DNA of 26,330 nt, from positions 1-26,330 of IMG/VR virus record IMGVR_UViG_3300013093_001711, one strand, 5' to 3'. Every line of letters begins with the position of its first letter. Positions within the stretch are counted from its first letter, which is position 1. Position numbers and translations under genes: made by a program. Of the stretch, positions 1-11,264 are shown in pieces. Source of the stretch: a virus. Below the pieces are notes generated by a model, which was not told the origin of the DNA, made no database searches, and saw nothing but the letters and a program-made list of their open reading frames with translations.

Positions 1-43
1 CAACTTGCTCACCTGCTTCTAAGATAAACTCTTTCGCTCTCAT
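1..43 (-). CDS. 5' end of a gene with capsid-targeting-like leader (partial)
   Basis: Only the first 14 codons lie in the window; the gene runs off the left edge. It reads MRAKEFILEAGEQV. The start ATG (41-43) follows the stop of the next gene upstream (45-47) after one base, so it is the distal member of the minus-strand operon that begins at 3993. The leader is nearly the same as that of the 45-1343 gene (MRAKEFLLLE), and F-I-L-E fits the T4 gp21 prohead-protease cleavage form (L/I-x-E). The body of the protein is not visible, so no function can be given. The reading frame is supported by the operon spacing and by the repeated leader, not by length. Confidence 0.7.
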   Translation of the reverse strand, partial: MRAKEFILEAGEQV

Positions 44-44
44 T

Positions 45-1343
45 TTACTTGCCTGTTGGTTTCTTAGGGTTATAATACTTGGCTTCCCACTTGCTGCCAT
101 TTCTCTGCATGATGATGTGTTTGCCAATCCATTCTTCTAATCCACCATCACCATCACGGCTGCGGAGGAATGCTTGGCGGATATTGTAAGCTGGTATTAA
201 TTCCAGTTCACCTAGGGAGAGTATTTCACCTTCTTCTTGATAGCCATCTCTGGCCGCGTCACGTGCTTGTCTAGGACTTACTTCAACAGCTTCTTTAGCC
301 GCAACAAACCAATCATGCACATCATAGTTCCAATTCATATAATCAACATCATTTTCTGCGGCTTTGTCCCAGTCAATCTGGCCTTCTTCTTCGTGGCCTT
401 CAGGATAGACATAGCCTTCTTTGCGTAGCCAATCATACCAATAGTCATCTTGATGTTCCCAATCATTGACTTGTTCCCAGACATGTTCCATGACTATCTC
501 GCCAATCTGCATCAAGGGTTCTTTTAATTCTTCATCATCAGCAAACATTATCCATTCGTTGATATAGTATTCAGGCATTTCTTCTTTGAAGAATGGCACC
601 AGATTACCAAAGCGGTGTTCTAGTAGATAAACGATATCCTCTACACTGCGATCTTCTTCATCCATGAACTGCTCGCTAGGGAAGTGCAGTTGATATTTCT
701 CACCTTGGTGTTTGGGTTGTTTAGGTAGTAGGATATACATCTGCCCATCTTTGTGATAGTGATTAAAATAGTTGGTACCTTGTGTTGACGCTGTGCACCA
801 ACGTGTGCCTTGACCGTAATAGCAAGCCGCCGCCTGATCGTTAGGAACCACTATACGCACCTGATCATTTTCAAACGCAGTATAAGCATCACCTTTTTCT
901 AGGCCTTTCTTTTCTTCTGGATCTGGATATTCATCCATGACAGACACGAAGTCTGCTAAATCAGCATAGCGCATGATGTCGTTGCGTGGGCTTGGTATTT
1001 TCTTTTTGAGTTTAAGTGTGTGGAACTTAGCCAATGCTGGTTTGACTTTGCTTTCTAAGTCTTCGATACGAGCACCCCAACCGCCATTGGCATACATCTT
1101 AGCTAGGAACACTGTGTATTCTTTATTCTTAGTGGGATCACAGGCTTCAATAGCCTGCATGACTGAAATCAGCGCATTGGTTTTTGTATTGGGATCTAGT
1201 TCTTTTTTACTATGTAAAAGATTATAAACTGAGGCGATCTCTGGGCTAGGATCTTTGAGAACTGTCTGCAAGATCTTATCACCAAAACGTTCAGCTGTGG
1301 CCTGTTGGTTATATTCTAATAGTAAAAATTCTTTAGCTCTCAT
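45..1343 (-). CDS. GTRWCTA-motif phage protein with capsid-targeting-like leader
   Basis: This 432-residue protein has no function I can name. Its leader MRAKEFLLLE, followed by Tyr, has the hydrophobic-x-Glu form of T4 capsid-targeting sequences. The central part (about residues 165-210) carries GQGTRWCTAS at 177-186, then an aromatic-rich stretch and a hydrophobic strand (MYILLP). This Gly-Thr-x-Trp-Cys-Thr arrangement is one I associate with uncharacterised proteins of marine T4-like phages. The last 200 residues are strongly acidic and rich in Trp and Tyr. The start overlaps the stop of the upstream nucleotidyltransferase gene as ATGA, so translation is probably coupled. An injected virion protein is an inference from the leader alone. 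Confidence 0.85.
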   Translation of the reverse strand: MRAKEFLLLEYNQQATAERFGDKILQTVLKDPSPEIASVYNLLHSKKELDPNTKTNALISVMQAIEACDPTKNKEYTVFLAKMYANGGWGARIEDLESKVKPALAKFHTLKLKKKIPSPRNDIMRYADLADFVSVMDEYPDPEEKKGLEKGDAYTAFENDQVRIVVPNDQAAACYYGQGTRWCTASTQGTNYFNHYHKDGQMYILLPKQPKHQGEKYQLHFPSEQFMDEEDRSVEDIVYLLEHRFGNLVPFFKEEMPEYYINEWIMFADDEELKEPLMQIGEIVMEHVWEQVNDWEHQDDYWYDWLRKEGYVYPEGHEEEGQIDWDKAAENDVDYMNWNYDVHDWFVAAKEAVEVSPRQARDAARDGYQEEGEILSLGELELIPAYNIRQAFLRSRDGDGGLEEWIGKHIIMQRNGSKWEAKYYNPKKPTGK

Positions 1344-2308
1344 AGTCTGAATACACTGTAAACAATAGGATAATCATGTTCACCAACTATACCATAGTTG
1401 ATGGGATCTTTACCACCTTCGCGTTTTTTAAAATCACTCCATACTTGATCAAACACTGCTTCTGGATTGTCTTGATATTCTTTAGTATCTTGGCATTGAT
1501 CCGTGAATCCTTCATAGTGAACAACGTAGTCACCTACAATATCCTTACCAACATCATCTGGAGTAAGTCCGTTTAAGAATTCTTCTACACGAGGATCTAA
1601 GCGGGCTTCACTTTCATCTAGGCTTAATTCTTGATCAAACTTTTGATTTTTGTTTTTGTAAAGTTTGTCTAAGTAACCTTTGTTGCGCACGATCTTAAAT
1701 GCTAGATTTTCTGTTGAGAACTCACCACCAGCATCAAGTCCTGCTTGGCGTGCGGCTTTGATCTTATCTTGTAGTCTAGTGATATCTTCAACACTGCCTT
1801 CACGGATAGCACGATTGATCTGCGTCATCAAGTCACGGGCTTTAGCATTGACAGCATGATCATTGATCGAGGGTTTGCGATATTCTGGTATGCGTATCCA
1901 ACGGGCATCTAACACGCTGTAGGTACCTTCTGATACATTCTCAGCACCAACATCTTCTACATATAATTCTACTTCATGTCCTTTGATAGTGATGTCATGC
2001 TCATCATTCCAGATCTTTTTCTTGGCCATGTAGAACGGTTCAGTGATATCACCATCTAATGCTGAATAATCTGTGACGATGTGTAAGTCAAAATCGCTGT
2101 ATTGTGTATAATTATAGTTGACTAAGCTACCACGTAGGATAACATCAACTAGTTTAAAGTTGGGTATTTCTAAGTATTCGATAAATCGTTTGGCGATCTC
2201 TAATAGTTTATAGCGGACATCAACACGTAGCTCATCTCCATCCCACACATCTTGATTCAGTGTGTGATGATATGCTATGTTACCTTTGACTAGATCTTTG
2301 GCTCTCAT
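1340..2308 (-). CDS. Nucleotidyltransferase-fold protein (MNT/pol-beta type)
   Basis: A 322-residue protein. It carries the pol-beta nucleotidyltransferase signature: Gly70-Ser71 followed by Ser81-Asp82-Phe83-Asp84 (GS...SDFD), with a further carboxylate, probably Glu114 in VELY, on the next strand. Such folds transfer a nucleotide from NTP to a protein, RNA or small molecule; the substrate cannot be read here. The frame is open upstream to 2341, but I choose the ATG at 2308 because it overlaps the upstream stop as ATGA and gives a leader (MRAKDLVKGN) like that of its neighbours. That leader lacks the Glu of the cleavage site, so it is a degenerate copy. The gene following it (45-1343) also overlaps by four bases. 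Confidence 0.85.
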   Translation of the reverse strand: MRAKDLVKGNIAYHHTLNQDVWDGDELRVDVRYKLLEIAKRFIEYLEIPNFKLVDVILRGSLVNYNYTQYSDFDLHIVTDYSALDGDITEPFYMAKKKIWNDEHDITIKGHEVELYVEDVGAENVSEGTYSVLDARWIRIPEYRKPSINDHAVNAKARDLMTQINRAIREGSVEDITRLQDKIKAARQAGLDAGGEFSTENLAFKIVRNKGYLDKLYKNKNQKFDQELSLDESEARLDPRVEEFLNGLTPDDVGKDIVGDYVVHYEGFTDQCQDTKEYQDNPEAVFDQVWSDFKKREGGKDPINYGIVGEHDYPIVYSVFRL

Positions 2309-3042
2309 ATGTGTCTCATGTCTACGAATTGGCGGAACCAAGCACCTGTGCCTGGTAACACTAATGCATCTTCAGGAAGTGTTAATTTATCTTTTTCAAA
2401 TGCTTCACGTGCATCTTTAACTAGTTCTTCATAATCAGGGCGTGATTTGATTTTCTTAACAATCGTTTCTACTGATTCTAAATCAGCTGGAGTCCCACCA
2501 ATTAATTTTTCTGCGATTTCTTTAGGATTCTTACTAATGACTTCATTGCTATCACGATCTACTAGACCATTTTTATATGACCATTTCATACCCAATGCCT
2601 TGGCTATCGATGCTAACAGTATCTGGCGATGCAGGCCTTTATATGGACTACCTTCTGGCGATCCTTTAACGCTGAAACGTTGGAATTCAGGATCTCCAAA
2701 CATAAAGTCTGTTTGCACATATCCATTTTCAGGATCGCCTAAGATAGGAGTACGTAAATGCACGCTATCACCTGACTTTTTAATATCAGTTGGTTTGATA
2801 CCTTTTTTTAATAACTGTTGGATCAATATGTCTTTTGAAATTTTACCTGCATCAACAGCTAGATCTAAGTCACCACTTGTTTCTTTATATCCTGTTGATC
2901 CTAACATGTTATCTACTAGATTTAGCCCAGTTAATCGTTCTAGCCATTGCACGGTAGGAACGACATTCTCACGATTAATCCTGGTAGTTGCAGGATTACC
3001 TTTGGCATCTTTAAATACGTTTCCACCTTCAAATAATTGCAT
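2305..3042 (-). CDS. Nucleotidyltransferase-like protein (second, divergent)
   Basis: A 245-residue protein with a second, different nucleotidyltransferase signature: Gly48-Ser49 in GSTGYKETSGDLDLAVD, with Asp58 and Asp60 as the metal pair, and Asp112 in VQTDFMF as the likely third carboxylate. It is not a close copy of the 1340-2308 protein, though both should share the fold. The target is unknown. The N-terminus MQLFE-GG has a short hydrophobic-x-Glu site at residues 3-5. The start lies next to the stop of the 3042-3437 gene (one shared base), and its own stop overlaps the next start. Two nucleotidyltransferases side by side in one operon suggest related roles, which is inference. Confidence 0.82.
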   Translation of the reverse strand: MQLFEGGNVFKDAKGNPATTRINRENVVPTVQWLERLTGLNLVDNMLGSTGYKETSGDLDLAVDAGKISKDILIQQLLKKGIKPTDIKKSGDSVHLRTPILGDPENGYVQTDFMFGDPEFQRFSVKGSPEGSPYKGLHRQILLASIAKALGMKWSYKNGLVDRDSNEVISKNPKEIAEKLIGGTPADLESVETIVKKIKSRPDYEELVKDAREAFEKDKLTLPEDALVLPGTGAWFRQFVDMRHI

Positions 3043-3437
3043 TATTTTACTAGTCCTGCTTTTACCAATAGATCGTCAATATTCTTATTGCCTGTTTTGC
3101 TGGTCAATGGTTGATTGCCGGCGGCTTTCTTTAGATAACTTGTAACGTTGGGATCAGGCTTGCCTGGGGTATAGGCTATCTCTTCACCAGGAACTTTACC
3201 TACTGCTGGTTGACCATAACTTGATTTGTGCAATCTAGTCGCGGCACTTAATGGAACACCAGCCCCAGCTGCTAAATTCTTACCTACGAAACCAGCGGCT
3301 TGGCCGACTCCTCTGATACCAGTAGCGATAGCTCCAGCTGCTTTACCACCGCTAGGAGGTAATTTCTTTTGTGGGTTCTGTGCCTGTTGTATAGCCTGGT
3401 CCAATGCTGATTCTTTTATAAAGTCTGTACTTTTCAT
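3042..3437 (-). CDS. Small Ala/Gly-rich protein with capsid-targeting-like leader
   Basis: A 131-residue basic protein of unknown function. The leader MKSTDFIKE, then Ser, is a good match in form to T4 internal-protein leaders (hydrophobic Phe-Ile, then x-Glu). After it comes a Gln/Lys/Pro segment, an Ala/Gly-rich stretch (about residues 30-65: GKAAGAIATGIRGVGQAAGF), which could form an amphipathic or membrane-associating helix, and a C-terminal part with several Lys. Size, charge and leader resemble T4 internal proteins IPI-IPIII, which enter the host with the DNA, but no sequence homology to them is claimed. The gene sits one base after the stop of the HAD phosphatase gene. Confidence 0.78.
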   Translation of the reverse strand: MKSTDFIKESALDQAIQQAQNPQKKLPPSGGKAAGAIATGIRGVGQAAGFVGKNLAAGAGVPLSAATRLHKSSYGQPAVGKVPGEEIAYTPGKPDPNVTSYLKKAAGNQPLTSKTGNKNIDDLLVKAGLVK

Positions 3438-3438
3438 A

Positions 3439-3993
3439 TTAATGTCCGTAGGCGTGAGCCAGTCCTTTTACTACTTTATCTAAACTATCTTCATCTGCTT
3501 GATACTTAATACCAATACCACCCTTGGCGCGCCAACGCTCGATGTTAATTCCACGATCATCGATCAAGATGTTAGGGCTACCATCACTATTAACAGCATA
3601 GTGTTCTTTTTGTCCTGTGATAATAATATTTTCAGGTTGCGGGCTGAGATATTTTTTAATCCATTCGCGTTTCCAATGTTCTGAGTTTTTATGATCACCA
3701 CGCAAAGGACTACTACAAATACTGTAATGTGGTACATAACTCAATACCAGTTGTATCAGATTATTTGCGGTAGGGAATTTAGGTAATCTAACAAAGAAAT
3801 CAGTACCTATCATTTTGTTTAATGTAGGATCTTGGCTAGCTGGAGGAATGCTCCTATAGTCATGCTTGCCAAACTTATCTGCTGGAACGCCTGCTAGTTT
3901 AGCATATTCATGGAAAAAGTCTGCAAGAACACCATCCATATCTAGATAGATTTTGGTGTTTTTGGTAGCTCTAATTAGTTCTTCTGATCGCAT
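3439..3993 (-). CDS. HAD-family 5'(3')-deoxyribonucleotidase-like phosphatase
   Basis: A 184-residue HAD-superfamily hydrolase. Motif I is DMDGVLADF (Asp18 nucleophile, Asp20 acid/base), motif II the Ser of SICSSP (about 91-96), a Lys near 129 (GQK) and motif IV ILIDDRG (Asp145-Asp146). This order and the D-M-D-G-V-L-A-D-F form fit the NT5C type that removes phosphate from (deoxy)nucleoside monophosphates. In a phage this could tune nucleotide pools or recycle host nucleotides. It is the first gene of the minus-strand operon and lies directly behind a consensus sigma70 promoter. Its leader (MRSEELIRA) is like its neighbours' but has no L/I-x-E site, so packaging is not supported for this one. 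Confidence 0.88.
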   Translation of the reverse strand: MRSEELIRATKNTKIYLDMDGVLADFFHEYAKLAGVPADKFGKHDYRSIPPASQDPTLNKMIGTDFFVRLPKFPTANNLIQLVLSYVPHYSICSSPLRGDHKNSEHWKREWIKKYLSPQPENIIITGQKEHYAVNSDGSPNILIDDRGINIERWRAKGGIGIKYQADEDSLDKVVKGLAHAYGH

Positions 3994-3999
3994 ATCTAG

Positions 4000-4007
4000 T
4001 ATTTATC
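4000..4007 (-). promoter_or_regulatory. T4-type late promoter box GATAAATA
   Basis: GATAAATA on the minus strand, one mismatch from the T4 late consensus TATAAATA. It ends only six bases before the ATG at 3993, so a transcript from it would have almost no leader. It lies just downstream of the sigma70 promoter at 4017-4045, so the operon may have both early and late initiation. Confidence 0.5.
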
Positions 4008-4016
4008 GCGAATACT

Positions 4017-4045
4017 ATTATACGCTTTTATGCTTGTCTTGTCAA
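4017..4045 (-). promoter_or_regulatory. Consensus sigma70 promoter of the 3993-1 operon
   Basis: On the minus strand the -35 box TTGACA (4045-4040) and the -10 box TATAAT (4022-4017) are both perfect and are separated by exactly 17 bp. The -35 and spacer lie partly inside the 3' end of the AdoMet decarboxylase gene. It should be read by host RNA polymerase early in infection and drive the six-gene operon that starts at 3993. Confidence 0.88.
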
Positions 4046-4399
4046 ATAATTGGTGCGTATGCGTTGAGGCATGAATGCATCTTTAACTGAACTAATAACT
4101 ATATCGTTATCAAATTCTTTGCATGAAAATACGTCTAGATATAGGTCACCAGTACTATCGATAAAGTGTGCTACGATACTACTGGTTACTATAATTTGGA
4201 CTGCGGTAAAGCCCGCTTTGTCAGGGAACTCTGCCGCAGTGTATTCAATATATGGTTCCCCGATGGGTTCCATATCGATGGCTTGGACCAAATGTTTTAT
4301 GAAGTTATAGACATTTTCTCGGCTTTGTATGCTAGGCACGTGGCAAGCATGACAGTCAAGGATTAGGTGATAACCCCAAAAACTGTTGGTGTTAGTCAT
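4028..4399 (-). CDS. speD: S-adenosylmethionine decarboxylase-like protein
   Basis: A 123-residue protein of the prokaryotic AdoMet decarboxylase (SpeH/SpeD) type, which makes decarboxylated AdoMet for spermidine synthesis. Against the bacterial family I can align Ser73 with the serine that becomes the pyruvoyl group, His78 with the processing His, and Cys93 in DVFSC with the catalytic Cys. The residue before the serine is Thr72, whereas the usual self-cleavage site is Glu-Ser. I choose the ATG at 4399 (MTNTNSFWGYHLILD) because the family begins near there and a purine-rich GGTAAAG precedes it; an upstream ATG at 4426 has no ribosome site. It overlaps the nuclease gene by eight bases. Marine T4-like phages are known to carry speD. 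Confidence 0.8.
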   Translation of the reverse strand: MTNTNSFWGYHLILDCHACHVPSIQSRENVYNFIKHLVQAIDMEPIGEPYIEYTAAEFPDKAGFTAVQIIVTSSIVAHFIDSTGDLYLDVFSCKEFDNDIVISSVKDAFMPQRIRTNYLTRQA

Positions 4400-5228
4400 C
4401 TTTACCGCTACCGCCGCATTTCGCACGTTTAGCGTTAGTCAATTTACCAAAGTCTACTGGCCATTCTTTACCTGGTGCTAGTTCTTTAGCATCAGCTGGG
4501 AATTTATAAGTAACACCAGCAAGTGCTTGGATGTCCTTGATTGGCTTACGATATTTGGTTAAATCATTACCTAGATTAGGATATGGAGCAACGTGTGGGA
4601 AATACCAACCAGCTACTTCATGTGTCTTGTCGTTGATGACGATCTTGTAGAAAGCGTGTGGAACTCTAACACCTTTACCTACTGTCGTGTCTGTTGCTGC
4701 ATAAACACCACCAGCATAAGCAGTCATTGGAACATTAAGTTGTAATGCCCAACCACGGAATGATGTTTCTAACAGTTTCCAAATACCACGATTCAAGCTA
4801 CCAAATTGTGGGCTCATGTTGGTCATCAAGAAGCTTTCATACTCAACTTGTTGATCCCATGATTGGTCACCATCTGGAGCCATATGGCCTTTGTCATAGT
4901 TAAATCCTTGTGCGTTCTTACCAACGTAGTCAGCTGGTGTAGCACCATCTTTAACGCTAGCGTCAGCAACGAAAGCGTTTGAACGTGTAACACAACCAAG
5001 TACATGGTCAGGTGTTAGTGTCCAGCTTACATTGTTAGGGATTTTGTTAGCAGCATCATATTCAACCAAATATGCTTGACGGCAAATAGGTGTGTATGGT
5101 GTTGCTGAAGTTTCTGCGCCATAAGGAATGTGTGCTGAACACTGAGCGATTCCACCTGGAGCACGTTGCGTCCACGCTTGAGCGTTGATGCTCAATAGTA
5201 GAGTTAAAGCTAATACTAGTTTTTTCAT
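4392..5228 (-). CDS. Secreted DNA/RNA non-specific endonuclease (NUC1 family)
   Basis: A 278-residue protein with a clear Sec signal peptide (MKKLVLALTLLLSINAQA, cut after Ala18) and a NUC1-type beta-beta-alpha-metal nuclease domain. The DKGHMAP motif (112-118; usual form DRGH) carries the general base His115. The segment TNMSPQFGSLNRGIWKLLE (136-154) gives the Mg-binding Asn146 and a probable Glu154. The enzyme should cut DNA and RNA outside the cytoplasm. A good ribosome site (AAGGA) and a full-consensus late box (5257-5264) precede the ATG. An exported nuclease is unusual in a phage: it may digest released host nucleic acid at lysis or DNA injected by rival phages. Both roles are inference. 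Confidence 0.9.
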   Translation of the reverse strand: MKKLVLALTLLLSINAQAWTQRAPGGIAQCSAHIPYGAETSATPYTPICRQAYLVEYDAANKIPNNVSWTLTPDHVLGCVTRSNAFVADASVKDGATPADYVGKNAQGFNYDKGHMAPDGDQSWDQQVEYESFLMTNMSPQFGSLNRGIWKLLETSFRGWALQLNVPMTAYAGGVYAATDTTVGKGVRVPHAFYKIVINDKTHEVAGWYFPHVAPYPNLGNDLTKYRKPIKDIQALAGVTYKFPADAKELAPGKEWPVDFGKLTNAKRAKCGGSGKDD

Positions 5229-5256
5229 TTGAAAGTCCTTTATATAAAAGTAAAAA

Positions 5257-5264
5257 TATTTATA
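5257..5264 (-). promoter_or_regulatory. T4-type late promoter TATAAATA
   Basis: Exact TATAAATA on the minus strand, 28 bases before the nuclease ATG at 5228. The box overlaps the TAA stop (5260-5262) of the adhesin gene. In T4 such a box is recognised by the late sigma gp55. Confidence 0.75.
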
Positions 5265-6921
5265 CTAATTTGTCGGGTGAAATAATATTTGTGCTGAGCA
5301 ACGGGTTCCAACCTGTACCAGTTTTTGTATACATTTGATTAACTGGAACCCAAGCATTGTTTTGTTTATAATAGACATTGGTGATCAAATTCCAGCTGCC
5401 AGCATTCTTGATATACATCTGTAGTTTGCGTTGGAATGTCAACACAGCATACCCATCATATCCAGCATTACCTGTCGATGGAGGAGCGAATGATAATCCA
5501 AATCCTCCTGACACCGTACCTGATCCATTTATTTTATAGTCACCTAATCCTTGACCGCCATTGCCAGGACCGCCTTGACCAGCATCATCTCCAACACCCG
5601 GACCACCTAAGCCACCAAATATACCGCCTCCACCACCACCGCCAGCAGCATAAGCATTAGATCCGTCTGTACCATAGCTTGATGTATTCAGTTGTGGATA
5701 ATTTTGTGGATTTCTAGTATCCCATAATTCAGAATTACTTGGATTTAGTATTTTTGCCGCACCACCAGCTGGGTTATAACCACCACCTGGTGCATTGGTA
5801 ACATACATGGTAATTGTATGTGTTCCTGCTGAAACATTGGCTGTTGCTTGATTTCCTGATCCAGTGAATCCACCAGCAGTTACCACTTGGCTGCCATCTA
5901 CTTGTAGATTACCTGAATTATCAGCTGCCATGATAAATGTATAGGTGCCTGATGTAGGGAATGTTACCGTAGTTGTGTAAACATAAGTAGTAACATCGTA
6001 AACACCACCAGTCCAGATAGCATAGGTATTCATGAAATTACTCCATGCATAACTGCTCACTGGATACCAATTACTGTAGGAATTTTGTATACCACCCGGA
6101 AGTCCAGGTAATCCAATTTGGTAACCATGACCACCACCTCCACCACCACCACCCGCGGCTATGGCCATTGGTATACCATTAACAACGATAGCAGTAGCAC
6201 CACCACCAGCACCTCCTCCACCTTCATGACCATCATCTGATTGAGTATTAACTGATCCGCCTTTACCACCATAGTAGCTCAGATTGATAGTGGTTCCAGC
6301 ATGTGTACCGTTGACATAAAAATGTAACCAACTGTATGCCGGTCCTGATGCTTGTGTGTTGCTGTAGATCCCTGAATTATATCCGTTTTGATAAAATGTT
6401 ATTTGCCCATCAGCTGATGTAAAATTACTACCAGCGGCATGTGTATGGAACACACTAAGACTGTATCCTGAATTTAGATACGCTGTAAATGATCTAGGAC
6501 CAACTCCACCACTGTCAGTGATCGCTGATACATTAGCAAACACGGTAGAAACATATCCAGCTAATTGTGTTTGCACTGCGTAAAATTGCCCTGTACTACT
6601 TTGTGAATAGTAGTCATCGAATCCATTGTCAAACAATGTATAAGGTGTTGGAGGAATAGGAGCTCCAAAATTAGCACCTCCGGTATCACTGATAGCAGCC
6701 TGTCCTGCACCACCAACTTCAACTGTGATAGTGTTGCCAGAAAATATGTTTAGATTTGATTGAACATATTGTCCACCACCACCTGGAGCACCCGTATCAC
6801 TGCCGGTGCCACCACCAGCACCATATAGATTAACCTGTACATTAGATAAAAATCCATCGGGCATGGTAAACTTGTATAGTCCGGGTTTATTAAATACTAA
6901 TTTGTAGGTCGAAGCTGTCAT
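5260..6921 (-). CDS. Glycine-rich tail adhesin / receptor-binding protein
   Basis: A 553-residue protein, most likely a tail-fibre tip adhesin. The N-terminal part (1-80) alternates beta strands with Gly clusters (AGGGTG, PGGGGQ), and further poly-Gly runs occur near 235-265 and 430-460, as in glycine-rich phage adhesins such as the T-even gp38 type. A middle segment (about 315-395: TYTFIMAADNSGNLQVDGS then GTHTITMYV) resembles a PA14-like or carbohydrate-binding beta module. The C-terminus has a run of short aromatic repeats (SWNLITNVYYK, AWVPVNQMYTK, GWNPLL). The start is supported by AAGGA before the ATG and by abutment with the stop of the upstream gene at 6922. The receptor cannot be inferred. 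Confidence 0.8.
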   Translation of the reverse strand: MTASTYKLVFNKPGLYKFTMPDGFLSNVQVNLYGAGGGTGSDTGAPGGGGQYVQSNLNIFSGNTITVEVGGAGQAAISDTGGANFGAPIPPTPYTLFDNGFDDYYSQSSTGQFYAVQTQLAGYVSTVFANVSAITDSGGVGPRSFTAYLNSGYSLSVFHTHAAGSNFTSADGQITFYQNGYNSGIYSNTQASGPAYSWLHFYVNGTHAGTTINLSYYGGKGGSVNTQSDDGHEGGGGAGGGATAIVVNGIPMAIAAGGGGGGGGHGYQIGLPGLPGGIQNSYSNWYPVSSYAWSNFMNTYAIWTGGVYDVTTYVYTTTVTFPTSGTYTFIMAADNSGNLQVDGSQVVTAGGFTGSGNQATANVSAGTHTITMYVTNAPGGGYNPAGGAAKILNPSNSELWDTRNPQNYPQLNTSSYGTDGSNAYAAGGGGGGGIFGGLGGPGVGDDAGQGGPGNGGQGLGDYKINGSGTVSGGFGLSFAPPSTGNAGYDGYAVLTFQRKLQMYIKNAGSWNLITNVYYKQNNAWVPVNQMYTKTGTGWNPLLSTNIISPDKLV

Positions 6922-7308
6922 TTATAAATCCTTGGCCGCATGGGCTAGTTTAGCCGCATGTTGGTGCACTGTTGTGCTGTAATCAGAACCTTTGGTTTTT
7001 CTCAAATTCTTTAAAAATTCAAAGTATCTATGTTTTTCATTCAATGGATCGTGTAATGCACGTCCTATTAATTCTCTGGCTGTGACTATGTCACCATAGT
7101 CAGCACTTTCATGGGTTACTATGTTAGTTACTGCAAAATCTTCGCTGACAGAATGCCATTGATCACGACCATTATACCATTCATCAGCGTCGCTTTGTGG
7201 ACCAGTATATGGATCTTGATCTGGGCTATGGAATAGGTCAGTACCGTTGTTCCAGCTATTGTTTGGTCCAGACCATTGGTCTTCTAAAAATAATTCTTTA
7301 ATCAGCAT
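6922..7308 (-). CDS. Small acidic protein with Alt-like leader
   Basis: A 128-residue protein of unknown function. I use the ATG at 7308, not the one at 7350, because it gives the leader MLIKELFLE followed by Asp-Gln. That leader is close in form to the start of T4 Alt (M-E-L-I-T-E-L-F-D-E-D), a virion-packaged ADP-ribosyltransferase. Residues 10-55 are low in complexity and rich in Asp, Asn, Trp, Gly and Pro. The C-terminal half is helical, basic and has several His. There is no Alt catalytic domain, so only the leader is shared. A late-type box ends five bases before the ATG. Confidence 0.7.
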   Translation of the reverse strand: MLIKELFLEDQWSGPNNSWNNGTDLFHSPDQDPYTGPQSDADEWYNGRDQWHSVSEDFAVTNIVTHESADYGDIVTARELIGRALHDPLNEKHRYFEFLKNLRKTKGSDYSTTVHQHAAKLAHAAKDL

Positions 7309-7313
7309 AAGAG

Positions 7314-7321
7314 TATTTATC
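7314..7321 (-). promoter_or_regulatory. T4-type late promoter box GATAAATA
   Basis: GATAAATA on the minus strand, five bases before the ATG at 7308. If transcription starts at the usual distance from such a box, the A of the ATG would be about the first base of the transcript, i.e. a leaderless mRNA. No ribosome site is seen between box and start. Confidence 0.5.
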
Positions 7322-7334
7322 AAGGTTTTAGCAC

Positions 7335-7363
7335 TTGACAAGTTTAACATTTGAGTGTATAAT
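7335..7363 (+). promoter_or_regulatory. Consensus sigma70 promoter of the 7398 gene
   Basis: TTGACA at 7335-7340, a 17-bp spacer and TATAAT at 7358-7363: both boxes are perfect. Flanking bases (TTGACAAG, GTATAATA) are shared with the promoter at 4017-4045, which suggests a common early-promoter type in this phage. Confidence 0.88.
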
Positions 7364-7397
7364 ACACTGTATTATTAACCATTCCGTGAGCTCAAAT

Positions 7398-7844
7398 ATG
7401 TCTAAATTCAGCGAAAAATTAACCAAAATCATCACAGATCCAATCATTGGACCTTTTGAAGGTGAAGATTTTTGGATTGATGACAATGGTACTATACAGG
7501 TAGCAGAAAATAACGTTAAGATGGCTGCTACAATCATGCGTAAAACCAACGCAAGTGGAAAGTTCAAACAAAGATTAGTCAAGATCGGACACAGTGGAGA
7601 CAGCATTTTATTAGGTTTTGACAATCTAACAGAAGTAAAGCCAATTTACACAGCTAAAATCGGATTCAAAGGTGACATGCTGGCAGAAGTCAAAGAAGAT
7701 GCTGATGGTAAATTTTGCCTGTATATCAATGGTAAACGTGGTGCTAGGATGTTCAGCAAGTTATCAGCAGTGAAAACAGCATTGAAGAAATTAGATCGAG
7801 AAATGCAGTCAGCTGGTCAAGAACCAGAAGATCTAGACGACTAG
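7398..7844 (+). CDS. Small acidic protein from a lone early gene
   Basis: A 148-residue protein I do not recognise. It starts MSKFSEKLTKI and is mainly beta-strand in pattern up to residue 120, with a C-terminal helix (about 118-136) and an acidic tail ending in EPEDLDD. It is the only plus-strand gene between the left edge and 24.3 kb and has a consensus sigma70 promoter 35 bases upstream. I prefer the ATG at 7398 to earlier in-frame starts, since those would fall within the promoter. No clear ribosome site is seen. Expression alone and early, opposite to all neighbours, fits a host-takeover or regulatory protein, but this is inference. Its stop abuts the stop of the convergent 7845-9287 gene with no terminator between. 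Confidence 0.82.
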   Translation: MSKFSEKLTKIITDPIIGPFEGEDFWIDDNGTIQVAENNVKMAATIMRKTNASGKFKQRLVKIGHSGDSILLGFDNLTEVKPIYTAKIGFKGDMLAEVKEDADGKFCLYINGKRGARMFSKLSAVKTALKKLDREMQSAGQEPEDLDD

Positions 7845-9287
7845 TTATTTCTTATTGACTATAGCAGTTAATAGCTTGGCTTTAGCTGGATCTTGGGCGG
7901 CTTTACCAAGTATGTTTTGAATCAATGGCTGTAGAGTCTTAGCATCTGTAGCATCAATCGGCTTACCTTGCATGGCATGATTTAATGCTTGTACAGTCTT
8001 TTCAGGTGAACCAGTTTTAGCATTCACAGCGGTAGTTAATGTGTTAGTTGCTAGAGCTGTCTGTTGAGCTTGCTTTTGAGCTTTAGCGATAGCACCTGGA
8101 TCTGTGCTGATGCTAGTTAAACTAAGTGCGGTATTAGCAGTTTGCCCAGGAGTATTAGATGATTGGCCTGGTGCTGGTTGACCAAATGTTGCTCCACCAT
8201 CTTCATCTACTGCTTTTTTTTTATCTAATGCGTTTAATTTCTTTTGTAGTTCGGCACGTTCTTGTGGAGTTGGTACACGGAAATTTTTAGCACGTTCAAT
8301 ATCTTTTAATTTATTAGCAATGATCTTGTGACCACGACTTTCGTCTGTTGTTGCTTTTTCAACAGGTTTGTATTTGAAATCTGAGGCATAAGGTGTATTT
8401 TTGTAGGCTTTTTTAGCTGCAGATAGGCTTGGAAATTTCTTATGATAGGTCTTTAGATGTTGACCTTCATCATCACTGAGCGTGACTATCCAGCGTGCTT
8501 CAACTGGACCATAATAACTTTCATCTACTTGTTTAGACATTTTCTTTTTAATGTCTGCTACTTTCTTTTGGAATGCCTTGCACTTTTCATCATCACCAGC
8601 TTTGTTGGCTTTGGCTGCTAGTTCTGTATACTTGTCTGCTTGTTTTTTCAAGTCAGCACTTTCATTTAAACCTTTTTCATATTCAGCACGGATAGCTGGA
8701 AGATAATCACTCCAAGCATCTCTAGCACGTTGTTTACCTAGCTCGTAAGCAAAGTATAAGAATGCTTCGTTGCTTAACTCTAAATTCGTCAACCCTGGAC
8801 GCATCTGTTTAACTACTTTACTAACGATAGGATCTTGTTCTGCACCTTCGTTCTTAGGTTTTTTACCAGCCTTCTTCATGGCGATAGCTATAGCCGCTTG
8901 CTGTGCTGGACTACCAGCTTCATCTGTTTTAACTGTTTTAACTGTTTTATATCTTGGGTGAGGTTCATGACCACGTGGGTGTCTTGCACCTTTACGACTT
9001 GGTCGTTTAGGTTCTACACCTAGATCTTCTTCATTAAACTGTGCCCACATTTCTTTGAGTTTTTGTTCAACAGTCATGTCTTCGCTAACTTTTTTAAGTT
9101 CTTTCATCATGTTAGGTACGACACTTTCTTCCTGTTCTTCAGCGCCACCACCTACCATTTTATTGCCTGGAGTAGCTGCATCTGTGCCTTTCCAATAACC
9201 TGTAAACTTAGGACCTGTAGGAGCCTTTTCAGCACTCTTCATGGTACCTTTGCTTTCCATGATAGTTAATAACTTTTTCATATCCAT
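7845..9287 (-). CDS. Lysine/alanine-rich protein, likely virion-associated
   Basis: A 480-residue protein of unknown function. The start at 9287 (MDMKKLLTIMESKG) is chosen over 9341 because AAGG lies nine bases upstream and the previous gene stops two bases before; a second ATG at 9281 is possible. The leader KLLTIME-Ser fits the L/I-x-E cleavage form. The protein is a chain of low-complexity Lys, Ala and Gln segments, with one compact domain around residues 255-315 (ESYYGPVEARWIVTLSDDEG...SLSAAKKAYKNT). The C-terminal 110 residues are Ala/Gln/Thr-rich. Composition and leader suggest a head-internal or structural protein; that is inference. Confidence 0.75.
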   Translation of the reverse strand: MDMKKLLTIMESKGTMKSAEKAPTGPKFTGYWKGTDAATPGNKMVGGGAEEQEESVVPNMMKELKKVSEDMTVEQKLKEMWAQFNEEDLGVEPKRPSRKGARHPRGHEPHPRYKTVKTVKTDEAGSPAQQAAIAIAMKKAGKKPKNEGAEQDPIVSKVVKQMRPGLTNLELSNEAFLYFAYELGKQRARDAWSDYLPAIRAEYEKGLNESADLKKQADKYTELAAKANKAGDDEKCKAFQKKVADIKKKMSKQVDESYYGPVEARWIVTLSDDEGQHLKTYHKKFPSLSAAKKAYKNTPYASDFKYKPVEKATTDESRGHKIIANKLKDIERAKNFRVPTPQERAELQKKLNALDKKKAVDEDGGATFGQPAPGQSSNTPGQTANTALSLTSISTDPGAIAKAQKQAQQTALATNTLTTAVNAKTGSPEKTVQALNHAMQGKPIDATDAKTLQPLIQNILGKAAQDPAKAKLLTAIVNKK

Positions 9288-9288
9288 G

Positions 9289-9729
9289 TTATTGTGCCTT
9301 TGATGTTGCACGCAAGAACCATGCATGTTTAGCAAACGCATCTTGGCGATCTGCTAGGAAGTTGCTTAGGCCATGATGCCCAAGAGCTTCTGCTTCTACA
9401 AATAATGTTTTCATGATTTCCTGCATCTTTTCTGCATCAGCTAGTAATTCTGCTACCATGGCTTGTGGAGGTAATACTTCTACTTCGTCGCTGATCGCTG
9501 TTAATGCTGAAAAGCGTTCTAGGCTTGCTGGAGTGTAGGCTTTGATTTTACGGATGTTTTCTGCAAAGTCATCTACAGCATCATATACTTCTTCATAGAT
9601 TTTTTGGAATAATTTATGTAGTTGATAGAAATCCTGACCTTCTACATTCCAGTGGAAGTTCTGTGCTTTGATAGCAAATGCATATTGGCTAGCAAATGCG
9701 ATCTTTAACTGTGTTGAAAACTTATCCAT
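9289..9729 (-). CDS. dps: Dps-like ferritin (DNA-protection protein)
   Basis: A 146-residue Dps-family four-helix protein. Dps forms 12-subunit shells that oxidise and store iron and shield DNA from peroxide. His26 (FHWN), His38, Asp53 and Glu57 keep the exact spacing of the E. coli ferroxidase ligands His51, His63, Asp78 and Glu82. The position matching Asp67 is Gln42, so one ligand differs. The C-terminal helix (DRQDAFAKHAWFLRA) is typical. It lacks the long Lys-rich N-terminal tail that E. coli Dps uses to bind DNA. Its start shares one base with the stop of the 9729-10109 gene. It could protect phage DNA or sequester iron. Confidence 0.9.
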   Translation of the reverse strand: MDKFSTQLKIAFASQYAFAIKAQNFHWNVEGQDFYQLHKLFQKIYEEVYDAVDDFAENIRKIKAYTPASLERFSALTAISDEVEVLPPQAMVAELLADAEKMQEIMKTLFVEAEALGHHGLSNFLADRQDAFAKHAWFLRATSKAQ

Positions 9730-10109
9730 TATTTTTTCTTGCTTTTCTTTTGTTTATATGTACCACCAAATAGGCTACCTACTTGGCTACGTTTAACCAT
9801 ACTGCCCATAGGAGTAGTAGCGATACCGCCTGCACTTGTACCACCACCAGTGGCATTTTCTGCTACTGTAGGTTGTACACCCATTTCGTGTTGGCTGGCC
9901 ATATATTCCATAACAGTAACCATCATACCCTTGGCAAGGCTGATTTTTTCTTCTACCCATTCAGGTAAGTCTTCGTTATTTCGTAATTCTTTAGCTAGAT
10001 CTACGCTGGCACGTACGATAGTGTGCAGGTTGTTTTTAACCATGCTTACTTCACCGCTGTATTCGTCATCTATACTAAATTCTTCTTTGATAAATTCTTG
10101 TGGTTTCAT
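9729..10109 (-). CDS. Conserved marine-phage protein with capsid-targeting-like leader
   Basis: A 126-residue protein. The leader MKPQEFIKE (then Glu) matches the T4 internal-protein type closely. Residues 14-78 (from DDEYSGEV to QHEMG) form a helical acidic domain that I recognise as recurrent in T4-like cyanophage proteins of unknown function. A Gly/Thr/Ala linker (85-105) leads to a very basic tail (KQKKSKKK), which could bind DNA. The ATG has a good ribosome site (GGAGT) and a late box 19 bases upstream. Small size, leader and basic end fit an internal head protein; no biochemical role can be given. Confidence 0.82.
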   Translation of the reverse strand: MKPQEFIKEEFSIDDEYSGEVSMVKNNLHTIVRASVDLAKELRNNEDLPEWVEEKISLAKGMMVTVMEYMASQHEMGVQPTVAENATGGGTSAGGIATTPMGSMVKRSQVGSLFGGTYKQKKSKKK

Positions 10110-10128
10110 AACTTTACTCCGTATAGTG

Positions 10129-10136
10129 TATTTATT
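10129..10136 (-). promoter_or_regulatory. T4-type late promoter box AATAAATA
   Basis: AATAAATA on the minus strand, 19 bases before the ATG at 10109, with GGAG between. It overlaps the TAA stop (10135-10137) of the upstream 10135-10437 gene. Confidence 0.72.
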
Positions 10137-10437
10137 AAACTTTAAAAGTTATTTCAGACTTAGCGACAGGTCTAGAAAAGCTGTTAATCCTAAAGTTTCT
10201 CATTTCAAATTCTACCACACTATTTGCCTGTGGTACTGTTTCTAATCGCATGGAATTAAAATTACCTGGTATTAGATCCACATAAAAATTTTCATCGATG
10301 CAGGTATCTAATCCCCAAATCCAAGTACGTTCAGTGATAAGATCATCATTGACGTATAGTCTATATCTATTATTTTCGTAATTGACCCAACTGGGTTTTA
10401 GACAGTGTATTTCAACAGTTAGATTGACTTCTGACAT
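10135..10437 (-). CDS. Small beta-rich protein, unknown
   Basis: A 100-residue protein. The pattern of alternating hydrophobic residues (LTVEIHCL, NRYRLYVND, FYVDLI, VVEFEMRNFRIN) points to a beta sandwich. Its order of strands resembles the longer 11265-11708 protein, in which a short Asp-Asp turn is followed by an Ile-rich strand, so the two may be distant relatives lying on each side of the 10440-11234 gene. Such small jelly-roll proteins often decorate tails or bind sugars, but nothing here proves it. The start lies two bases after the stop of the upstream gene; no strong ribosome site is seen. Confidence 0.75.
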   Translation of the reverse strand: MSEVNLTVEIHCLKPSWVNYENNRYRLYVNDDLITERTWIWGLDTCIDENFYVDLIPGNFNSMRLETVPQANSVVEFEMRNFRINSFSRPVAKSEITFKV

Positions 10438-10439
10438 AA

Positions 10440-11234
10440 CTAAACTGGTTTTTTACCTTTGCCTATGTTTTTGTTAACTTTGATTTGACGAGTTGGAGCA
10501 CCTGGATTTTTACGACCTACTAGACCAAATGCTTTCATTTCTTTACCTAGGGTATTAGGATGTACGTCTACAGTCATTGATGTTTTATAGCGTGGATCAT
10601 TTCCACCACGAACTACACCTACTCCACCAGTTTCGGCCAGATTATCTACTAGGCCCATGCCTTTACGGACTGCCTGGAATAGTGCTGGTGCTAGTCGTCC
10701 TGCACCTGTTGATTTAGAAAATGCTTCCATATTATCTGCTAGCGCAGCCGCACGTGCTTGGCTGGCACTGACGCCTTCTACACCTTCTGCACCATCTTCA
10801 CGATCGCCACTTGATACAAAATCAATATTGGCAAATTTATAGTAGGTTTTCTTGCCTTTTACACCATTGTATGATGTTAATAGTTTTTGGAATGCTTCCA
10901 TGCGATCACTACCTGCTACAAATGTAACGTGTGTATAACCATGCTGATATAAGAATTCAGCTATGTCCATGATAGTGCGTAGTCCACCTACGCTGACATG
11001 ACCAGCATGCTTAGGAAACATCTGTTTAACGAATTTAACTTTAGTATCGTAGTCTAAGGGATTGTCTCGCTTGTCTTGTGTATGGCTAAGGAATATATAG
11101 TAATCTCCACCACGAGCGGCTTTGTGAGTAGTGGCCATTAATCGAGCATGACCAATAGTGGGTGGATTCATGCGACCAAAGCAAAAGGCCACATGTTTAG
11201 GTTGACGAGCTTCGTAAATTTCAGTTAATAACAT
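10440..11234 (-). CDS. Cytidylyltransferase-fold (NMN adenylyltransferase-like) protein
   Basis: A 264-residue protein of the HxGH nucleotidyltransferase class. The nucleotide-binding loop is GRMNPPTIGH (20-29), where Thr26 takes the place of the first His; the second signature SASQAR (156-161) fits the usual (I/S)SxxxR element. NMN adenylyltransferases of this fold make NAD; others activate sugars or lipids with CTP. Members with the GRMNPPTxGH loop are common in T4-like marine phages. About 90 C-terminal residues form a Gly/Lys-rich extension. The leader MLLTEIYE (then Ala) has the hydrophobic-x-Glu form. A late box lies 22 bases upstream. Substrate remains open. Confidence 0.82.
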   Translation of the reverse strand: MLLTEIYEARQPKHVAFCFGRMNPPTIGHARLMATTHKAARGGDYYIFLSHTQDKRDNPLDYDTKVKFVKQMFPKHAGHVSVGGLRTIMDIAEFLYQHGYTHVTFVAGSDRMEAFQKLLTSYNGVKGKKTYYKFANIDFVSSGDREDGAEGVEGVSASQARAAALADNMEAFSKSTGAGRLAPALFQAVRKGMGLVDNLAETGGVGVVRGGNDPRYKTSMTVDVHPNTLGKEMKAFGLVGRKNPGAPTRQIKVNKNIGKGKKPV

Positions 11235-11256: not shown

Positions 11257-11264
11257 TATTTATC
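11257..11264 (-). promoter_or_regulatory. T4-type late promoter box GATAAATA
   Basis: GATAAATA on the minus strand, 22 bases before the ATG at 11234 and directly beyond the TAA stop (11265-11267) of the upstream gene. Confidence 0.7.

Follow-up and report, generated by a model that had tools for sequence, protein, structure and literature searches.

The left part (positions 1–11,234) of a 26.3 kb virus record, IMGVR_UViG_3300013093_001711 (hereafter the window: the whole stretch analysed, 26,330 nucleotides), is very probably an array of late-expressed cargo genes in a T4-like phage that uses T4-type capsid targeting. About eight unrelated proteins, each with an N-terminal capsid-targeting leader of 5–11 residues, would be made late and bound through the leader to the assembling prohead core. 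During head maturation the phage's gp21-type prohead protease would cut after the Glu of a hydrophobic-x-Glu motif, leaving the cargo free in the DNA-filled head, from which it would exit together with the DNA to act as infection begins, in the manner of T4 Alt and IPI. The enzymes in this cargo would be a cytidylyltransferase/NMNAT-like one and one or two nucleotidyltransferases of the pol-beta fold; the rest would be small modular proteins. Packaging is likely, based on leader conservation and on the detection of homologues in virions; core binding and cleavage after Glu are likely by T4 precedent, and from the same precedent (PMC9026906) we infer ejection with the DNA and an effect on the host. 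The window has a T4-like phage context, with a ClpA-like ATPase, DnaJ, a PhoH-like gene, an endolysin and T4-type late-promoter-like sites.

An earlier note on this DNA had reported that eight minus-strand genes in the left part open with a short peptide ending in hydrophobic-x-Glu, and all eight could be read in the DNA. With an arrow marking the predicted cut, they encode the cytidylyltransferase/NMNAT-like protein (10440–11234, MLLTEIYE↓A; phrog_3041, 8.7e-49); a 126-aa protein (9729–10109, MKPQEFIKE↓E); a 480-aa modular protein (7845–9287, MDMKKLLTIME) with internal modules AQQAAIAI and SRGHKIIANKL; a 128-aa protein (6922–7308, MLIKELFLE↓D); a 131-aa Ala/Gly/Lys-rich orphan placed here by motif only (3042–3437, MKSTDFIKE↓S); a pol-beta-fold nucleotidyltransferase (2305–3042, MQLFE↓GGNVFK); a 432-aa protein (45–1343, MRAKEFLLLE↓Y); and a gene cut by the window end (1–43, MRAKEFILE↓AGEQV), whose leader recurs as MRAKEFILE↓GGW at 104014 of the related genome G007. 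The starts at 7308 and 9287 are internal Met codons, not those of the longest open reading frame; both are backed by homologues beginning at the same place, and 9287 also by the gene caller. Leader quality is uneven: 10440, 45, 9729 and 6922 have good leaders, that of 2305 is conserved, but its EGGNVFK may belong to the fold, and at 43 the gene is a fragment. The leaders of adjacent genes differ in synonymous codons (GCG/GCT, GAG/GAA), so their likeness lies at the protein level, and a recent DNA duplication was ruled out.

The motif in its loose form, M-x(1-8)-[LIVMF]-x-E, can be read at 14% of internal Mets, which leaves single cases with little weight. Such matches stand at 8/15 genes on the left versus 1/24 on the right (binomial p 4e-4, Fisher p 8e-4, two of the starts having been picked with the motif already known), and over the whole window they are not enriched at starts (8/38 versus 43/163). 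Being too common by chance, the loose form was dropped as a genome-wide statistic for a stricter T4-type pattern, M[KR]x(1-4)[DEQNKST][FLYI][ILMVF]xE. When this profile was searched over start codons, as the earlier note had proposed, in five genomes (the window, G001, G004, G007 and G016), it was found at 20/1151 starts versus 5/4705 internal Mets (p 1.2e-10), about sixteen-fold commoner at starts. A slightly wider strict pattern matched 0/110 gene starts in lambda and N4.

The Glu of the leaders is kept in relatives while its surroundings vary. Among about 35 distinct relatives of the cytidylyltransferase with full starts, leaders include MFLTELFE↓S, MKLRQLFE↓A, MRLKQLWE↓D, MYIAELFE↓N and MILNELFE↓T; Glu8 is kept in 24/25 aligned orthologues, and the adjoining residues and linker length vary. 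Likewise, P3 and P1 of [LIV]-x-E↓GGNVFK are kept in 9/9 aligned orthologues of 2305–3042, whose N-termini are varied, and M1, E5, L8, L9 and E10 of 45–1343 are invariant in a three-sequence alignment. In four relatives the leader of 9729–10109 reads MKPSEFIKE, MKPSEFINE or MKTNEFIKE, and homologues of 6922–7308 start MLVQELFE, MLITEFFFE or MLLTEFFE. As for the claim that the bodies behind the leaders are unrelated, 36 distinct strict-leader proteins from the homologous loci L001–L052 fell into 12 unrelated clusters. The array shares with T4-type internal proteins that bear a capsid-targeting sequence (CTS) a short N-terminal leader ending in [LI]-x-E on unrelated bodies.

Its leaders also match those of T4 itself, MKTYQEFIAE in IPII/IPIII and MELITELFDE in Alt, as the earlier note had said. 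For packaging, ten residues of T4 IPIII are enough, and cleavage depends on positions 8 and 10 (PMC9026906). In cyanophages, published reports place the cytidylyltransferase homologue in virions of S-SM1 (PMC3037559), S-SZBM1 (PMC9146016) and S-CREM2 (PMC10665884), and, as NMNAT, of S-SCSM1, where detection in S-CBWM1 is cited (PMC9602691). The homologue carries the leader MRFRQFIIE↓A in S-SZBM1 and MKNFSSFLTE↓A in S-CREM2. PA5oct EST35_0205, a homologue of 45–1343, is annotated as structural from electrospray tandem mass spectrometry (ESI-MS/MS), and virion-detected S-CREM2 gp156 (MKKLISE) is a homologue of 1340–2308, whose S-CRM01 counterpart has HLISE↓L. The claim that several proteins are packaged gains support from relatives, in whose virions homologues of three window proteins (10440, 45 and 1340) were detected.

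For S-CREM2 we compared the N-termini of all 219 translated genes with the proteins published as detected in its virions, using a general leader pattern fixed before that genome was seen. Seven proteins matched, 6/7 of them virion-detected versus 52/219 overall (p 8e-4). Among non-structural proteins the leader was present in 6/26 detected versus 1/167 undetected (p 2e-5). The cytidylyltransferase is among the matches, together with a SAM hydrolase (MKDFDSFLEE) and an APH-like kinase (MKRFDAFLTE). The exact strict pattern fixed earlier (strict2) gave no match in S-CREM2, and stricter patterns were tuned after that genome had been seen, which makes their p of 1.4e-4 there optimistic.

Longer leaders were observed as well. 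The virion-detected Cas9-like nuclease S-CREM2 gp12 (L142:7704-10313) has MTSRWSNWSTGSDKKPLRFASFMAE↓A, ending RFASFMAE↓A, and S-CRM01 g128 (L151:7168-7719) has the sister leader MRQSRWAKWSRGTEVKLSLDSFIKE↓A.

Several points weigh against this account. In the modular protein 7845–9287 the N-terminal helix MDMKKLL is kept in homologues and the position of the Glu shifts, and no homologue of 3042–3437 was found in the fetched relatives' loci. One counted leader match, S-CREM2 gp17, is probably a chance match, and two strict-leader proteins of S-SZBM1 (191 and 192) are missing among its 30 detected proteins. The published virion data, in the parts available, contain no peptides beginning after the Glu, and the S-CREM2 authors consider carry-over in CsCl-purified virions possible (PMC10665884). 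The 26 kb window is without a protease, capsid or scaffold gene, and no head genes were found in the partial contigs of its nearest IMG/VR relatives, G001 (149 kb, with a cytidylyltransferase 80% identical) and G004 (158 kb). The gp21-like protease for which the earlier note had advised looking was thus absent from these three and was found in other relatives: the 219 kb contig of G007 carries a portal gene and, at its end, the first part of a gp21 protease that is 45% identical to that of S-CREM2, and G016–G019 (217–364 kb) encode an S77 protease and gp23. Counting in favour of the account, G007 and G016–G019 all carry the cytidylyltransferase alongside these T4-type head genes.

The alternative that survives best, though we consider it unlikely, is that the packaged proteins are core or structural parts that serve head morphogenesis and not injected effectors. 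T4 IPIII influences head shape (PMC9026906), several array proteins are small, basic and of low complexity, and one resembles the N-arm of the capsid protein. Against this role, the bodies include recognisable enzymes, the cytidylyltransferase and the pol-beta nucleotidyltransferase, and the leader proteins of S-CREM2 include the SAM hydrolase and the APH-like kinase. Improbable by comparison is a reading in which the N-terminal peptides are docking motifs for another purpose, for example to join a complex that the phage encodes inside infected cells, with carry-over accounting for their detection in virions; the CsCl purification leaves room for this, and the array proteins 1340 and 3439 keep MRAxDL-type starts without Glu. 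However, the conserved residues are precisely P3–P1 of a gp21-type site, CTS function is proven for T4 leaders of this form (PMC9026906), and leader-bearing non-structural proteins are preferentially detected in S-CREM2 virions; this association argues against carry-over as the whole story. Chance and shared composition, whereby short hydrophobic and acidic starts make the motif and a reader selected them, is highly improbable: the commonness of the loose motif and its lack of enrichment over the whole window speak for it, but the left-part clustering, the strict enrichment over five genomes and the conservation in orthologues speak against it.

Within the capsid-targeting account, the cargo in the window leans to nucleotide chemistry. 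The earlier note had placed nucleotidyltransferase-fold enzymes among the packaged proteins, which held in part. The protein at 2305–3042 has a G-x-G...SGD-x-D active-site pattern, with S-G-D-x-D invariant in nine sequences, and its AlphaFold model (pLDDT 68) matched DNA polymerase lambda/mu in Foldseek (E 1.7e-4, with a low TM of 0.33); by pattern and modelled fold it belongs to the pol-beta nucleotidyltransferase superfamily. A second pol-beta-type protein (1340–2308, minus strand, a weak match to NTP_transf_2) has the motif, but its N-terminus, MRAKDLVKGN, is leader-like without a cleavable Glu. The claim did not hold for 10440–11234, whose fold differs: it is a cytidylyltransferase/NMNAT-type enzyme with an HxGH-type motif, NPPTIGH, its N-P-P-T-x-G-H residues being invariant among aligned orthologues. 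A 5'(3')-deoxyribonucleotidase-like protein (NT5C; 3439–3993, minus strand; PF06941 3.8e-6, phrog_2643) starts MRSEELIRAT, also without Glu, and its orthologues start MRAxDL or MKAQELIRAT. Because an Asp at position 10 of the T4 leader blocks cutting and not targeting, 1340 and 3439, both with MRAxDL-type starts, could by analogy be targeted yet uncut. This set of enzymes hints that the cargo may act by nucleotidylation or through control of NAD or nucleotides in the host. The AlphaFold model of 45–1343 was poor (pLDDT 58) with no PDB match, and a Pfam search of the leader bodies gave few matches.

Sites resembling T4-type late promoters accompany the array. ATAAATA lies within 45 nt upstream of 7/38 window gene starts versus about 0.27 expected, including those of 3439 (immediately upstream), 9729 and 10440 (at 11257–11263, minus strand), and the internal start of 6922–7308 has GATAAATACTCTT directly upstream. 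Such sites agree with late promoters of the T4 type, which virion cargo would be expected to have. At 7308 and 3993, only 5–6 nt separate the late-promoter-like GATAAATAC from the start codon downstream, and transcripts from it would be almost leaderless.

A second signal may be present on some cargo. The gp23-type capsid proteins of G016 and G019 contain YLSE↓SATAGATSAGNVATLNRV or SLAE↓SATAGATSAGNVATLNRV; judged from the conserved RR and VGVQPM landmarks, we read this stretch as probably sitting where T4 gp23 is cut (FLTE↓AEIGGD), with the exact column not fixed by a global alignment that gaps at this junction. Small leader proteins of related phages have MKISDILRE↓TATAGATSAGNIASV and MKIKDILE↓SATAGATSSGNIATV, and in the window 9729–10109 contains an internal VAE↓NATGGGTSAGGIATTPMGSMVKR that resembles the gp23-type junction of relatives (score 54 against the G016 major capsid protein arm). 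This shared junction is indirect support for the predicted removal of the leader after Glu. The S-CREM2 capsid arm reads LLTE↓APTQAVGADGFTGAAAPGGPNAGFDPVM, and virion-detected gp160 contains AAGATGFTGAAAPEGPVAGYDPLM (score 89 versus a null maximum of 49). Scores also exceeded the null maximum for S-CRM01 g121 against its own capsid arm (98 versus 51), for PA5oct EST35_0203, which was detected by mass spectrometry (53 versus 44), and for G016 (58 versus 44). The copy was not significant in Melnitz (37 versus 41), G019 (46 versus 46), G050 or the partly fetched genome of S-SZBM1. In cross-comparison, S-CREM2 gp160 scored 95 on the S-CREM2 arm and 22 on that of G016, whereas proteins of G016, L050, L021 and window 9729–10109 scored 54–67 on the G016 arm and 21–29 on that of S-CREM2. 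The arm segments are rich in Ala, Gly, Ser and Thr, and the shuffling null controls composition, not every bias.

We tentatively propose, as a possibility somewhat short of even, that in T4-like phages a copy of the mature N-terminal arm of the phage's own major capsid protein might serve cargo as a second sorting or docking signal. With the same reserve, such a copy, often just after a protease-type Glu, might allow cargo to be cleaved or retained in the way that the capsid protein itself is. If so, the capsid arm of the window phage should resemble NATGGGTSAGGIAT. The internal proteins with such copies (L112:11917-13095, L144:28342-29235, L172:19322-20818 and window 9729–10109) reproduce the residues behind the maturation cleavage site of the capsid protein, each fitting the capsid protein of its own lineage.

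Other features of the array and its relatives concern modular proteins and neighbouring genes. Among leader proteins (window 7845–9287; L022, L024, L044 and others) the modules CWxGYxxxGTKxKGG..VxNCV, AQQAAIAI..KKAGK, SRGHKIIANKL and EYDDEAGM are shuffled in differing order, and the SRGHKII module of 7845–9287 has its own leader, MKIADIIE↓, in L021. In long proteins at L059:6118-8013, L071:986-3142 and L075:10970-13126, small modules are parted by repeated QGVAE↓G/S/A; modules separated by QGVAE↓G occur in five distant proteins. These are polyprotein-like, with prohead-protease-type sites, and some of their modules stand alone elsewhere as leader proteins. The polyprotein idea was kept as a lead only: over the whole G019 genome GVAE is not clearly enriched (4 versus 2.2 expected), with QGVAE at 2 versus 0.09. 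Two further genes within the array lack a leader, a DNA/RNA non-specific endonuclease (4392–5228; PF01223, 4e-37) with an apparent signal peptide and a Dps/ferritin-like protein (9289–9729; PF00210, 3e-17).

The closest known system is that of T4 IPI/IPII/IPIII. In both, a short N-terminal M-K-x(2-4)-F-I-x-E leader heads bodies that are unrelated to one another, and relatives of the window have the S77 gp21 protease and gp23. In contrast, the window bodies have no homology seen to T4 internal proteins and several are enzyme-like; more leader genes stand in one tandem array, with leaders of 5–11 residues, and cleavage is here predicted. T4 Alt is similar in having an enzyme as cargo and a leader very close to those of the cytidylyltransferase family (MFLTELFE, MLLTEIYE), but it is an ADP-ribosyltransferase; the window enzyme has another fold, and no ADP-ribosyltransferase was found. 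The virion cytidylyltransferase/NMNAT of Kyanoviridae (S-SM1, S-SZBM1, S-CREM2, S-SCSM1) has a homologous body (35–43% identity) and, where read (S-SZBM1, S-CREM2), a leader ending hydrophobic-x-Glu; the available parts of those reports give the detection without linking it to a targeting leader. Phages of the phiKZ/SPN3US type likewise have many head proteins that a gp21-related protease cleaves behind Glu (PMC9026906), but the propeptides of their ejection proteins have several sites and their head gene set is different.

A T4 review already proposes the CTS as a possible general route by which T4-like phages load diverse proteins (PMC9026906), and it was the only work joining capsid targeting and cyanophage found in our search, which covered literature outside subscription. 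Neither leader arrays in aquatic T4-like phages nor the copy of the capsid arm seems to have been described in the literature searched; the copy suggests a relation between cargo and shell that is absent from that literature. The present analysis adds a large array from an aquatic lineage that has not been cultivated, a statistical association of the leader with published virion detection in one cyanophage, and the copied capsid arm. If the capsid-targeting account is true, the proteins brought into cells by T4-like phages could be listed from a simple N-terminal signature, in a very abundant aquatic phage group whose early takeover is almost unknown. The recurrent 'non-structural' proteins of cyanophage virions (kinase, SAM hydrolase, cytidylyltransferase, Cas9-like nuclease) would then be addressed cargo and not contamination.

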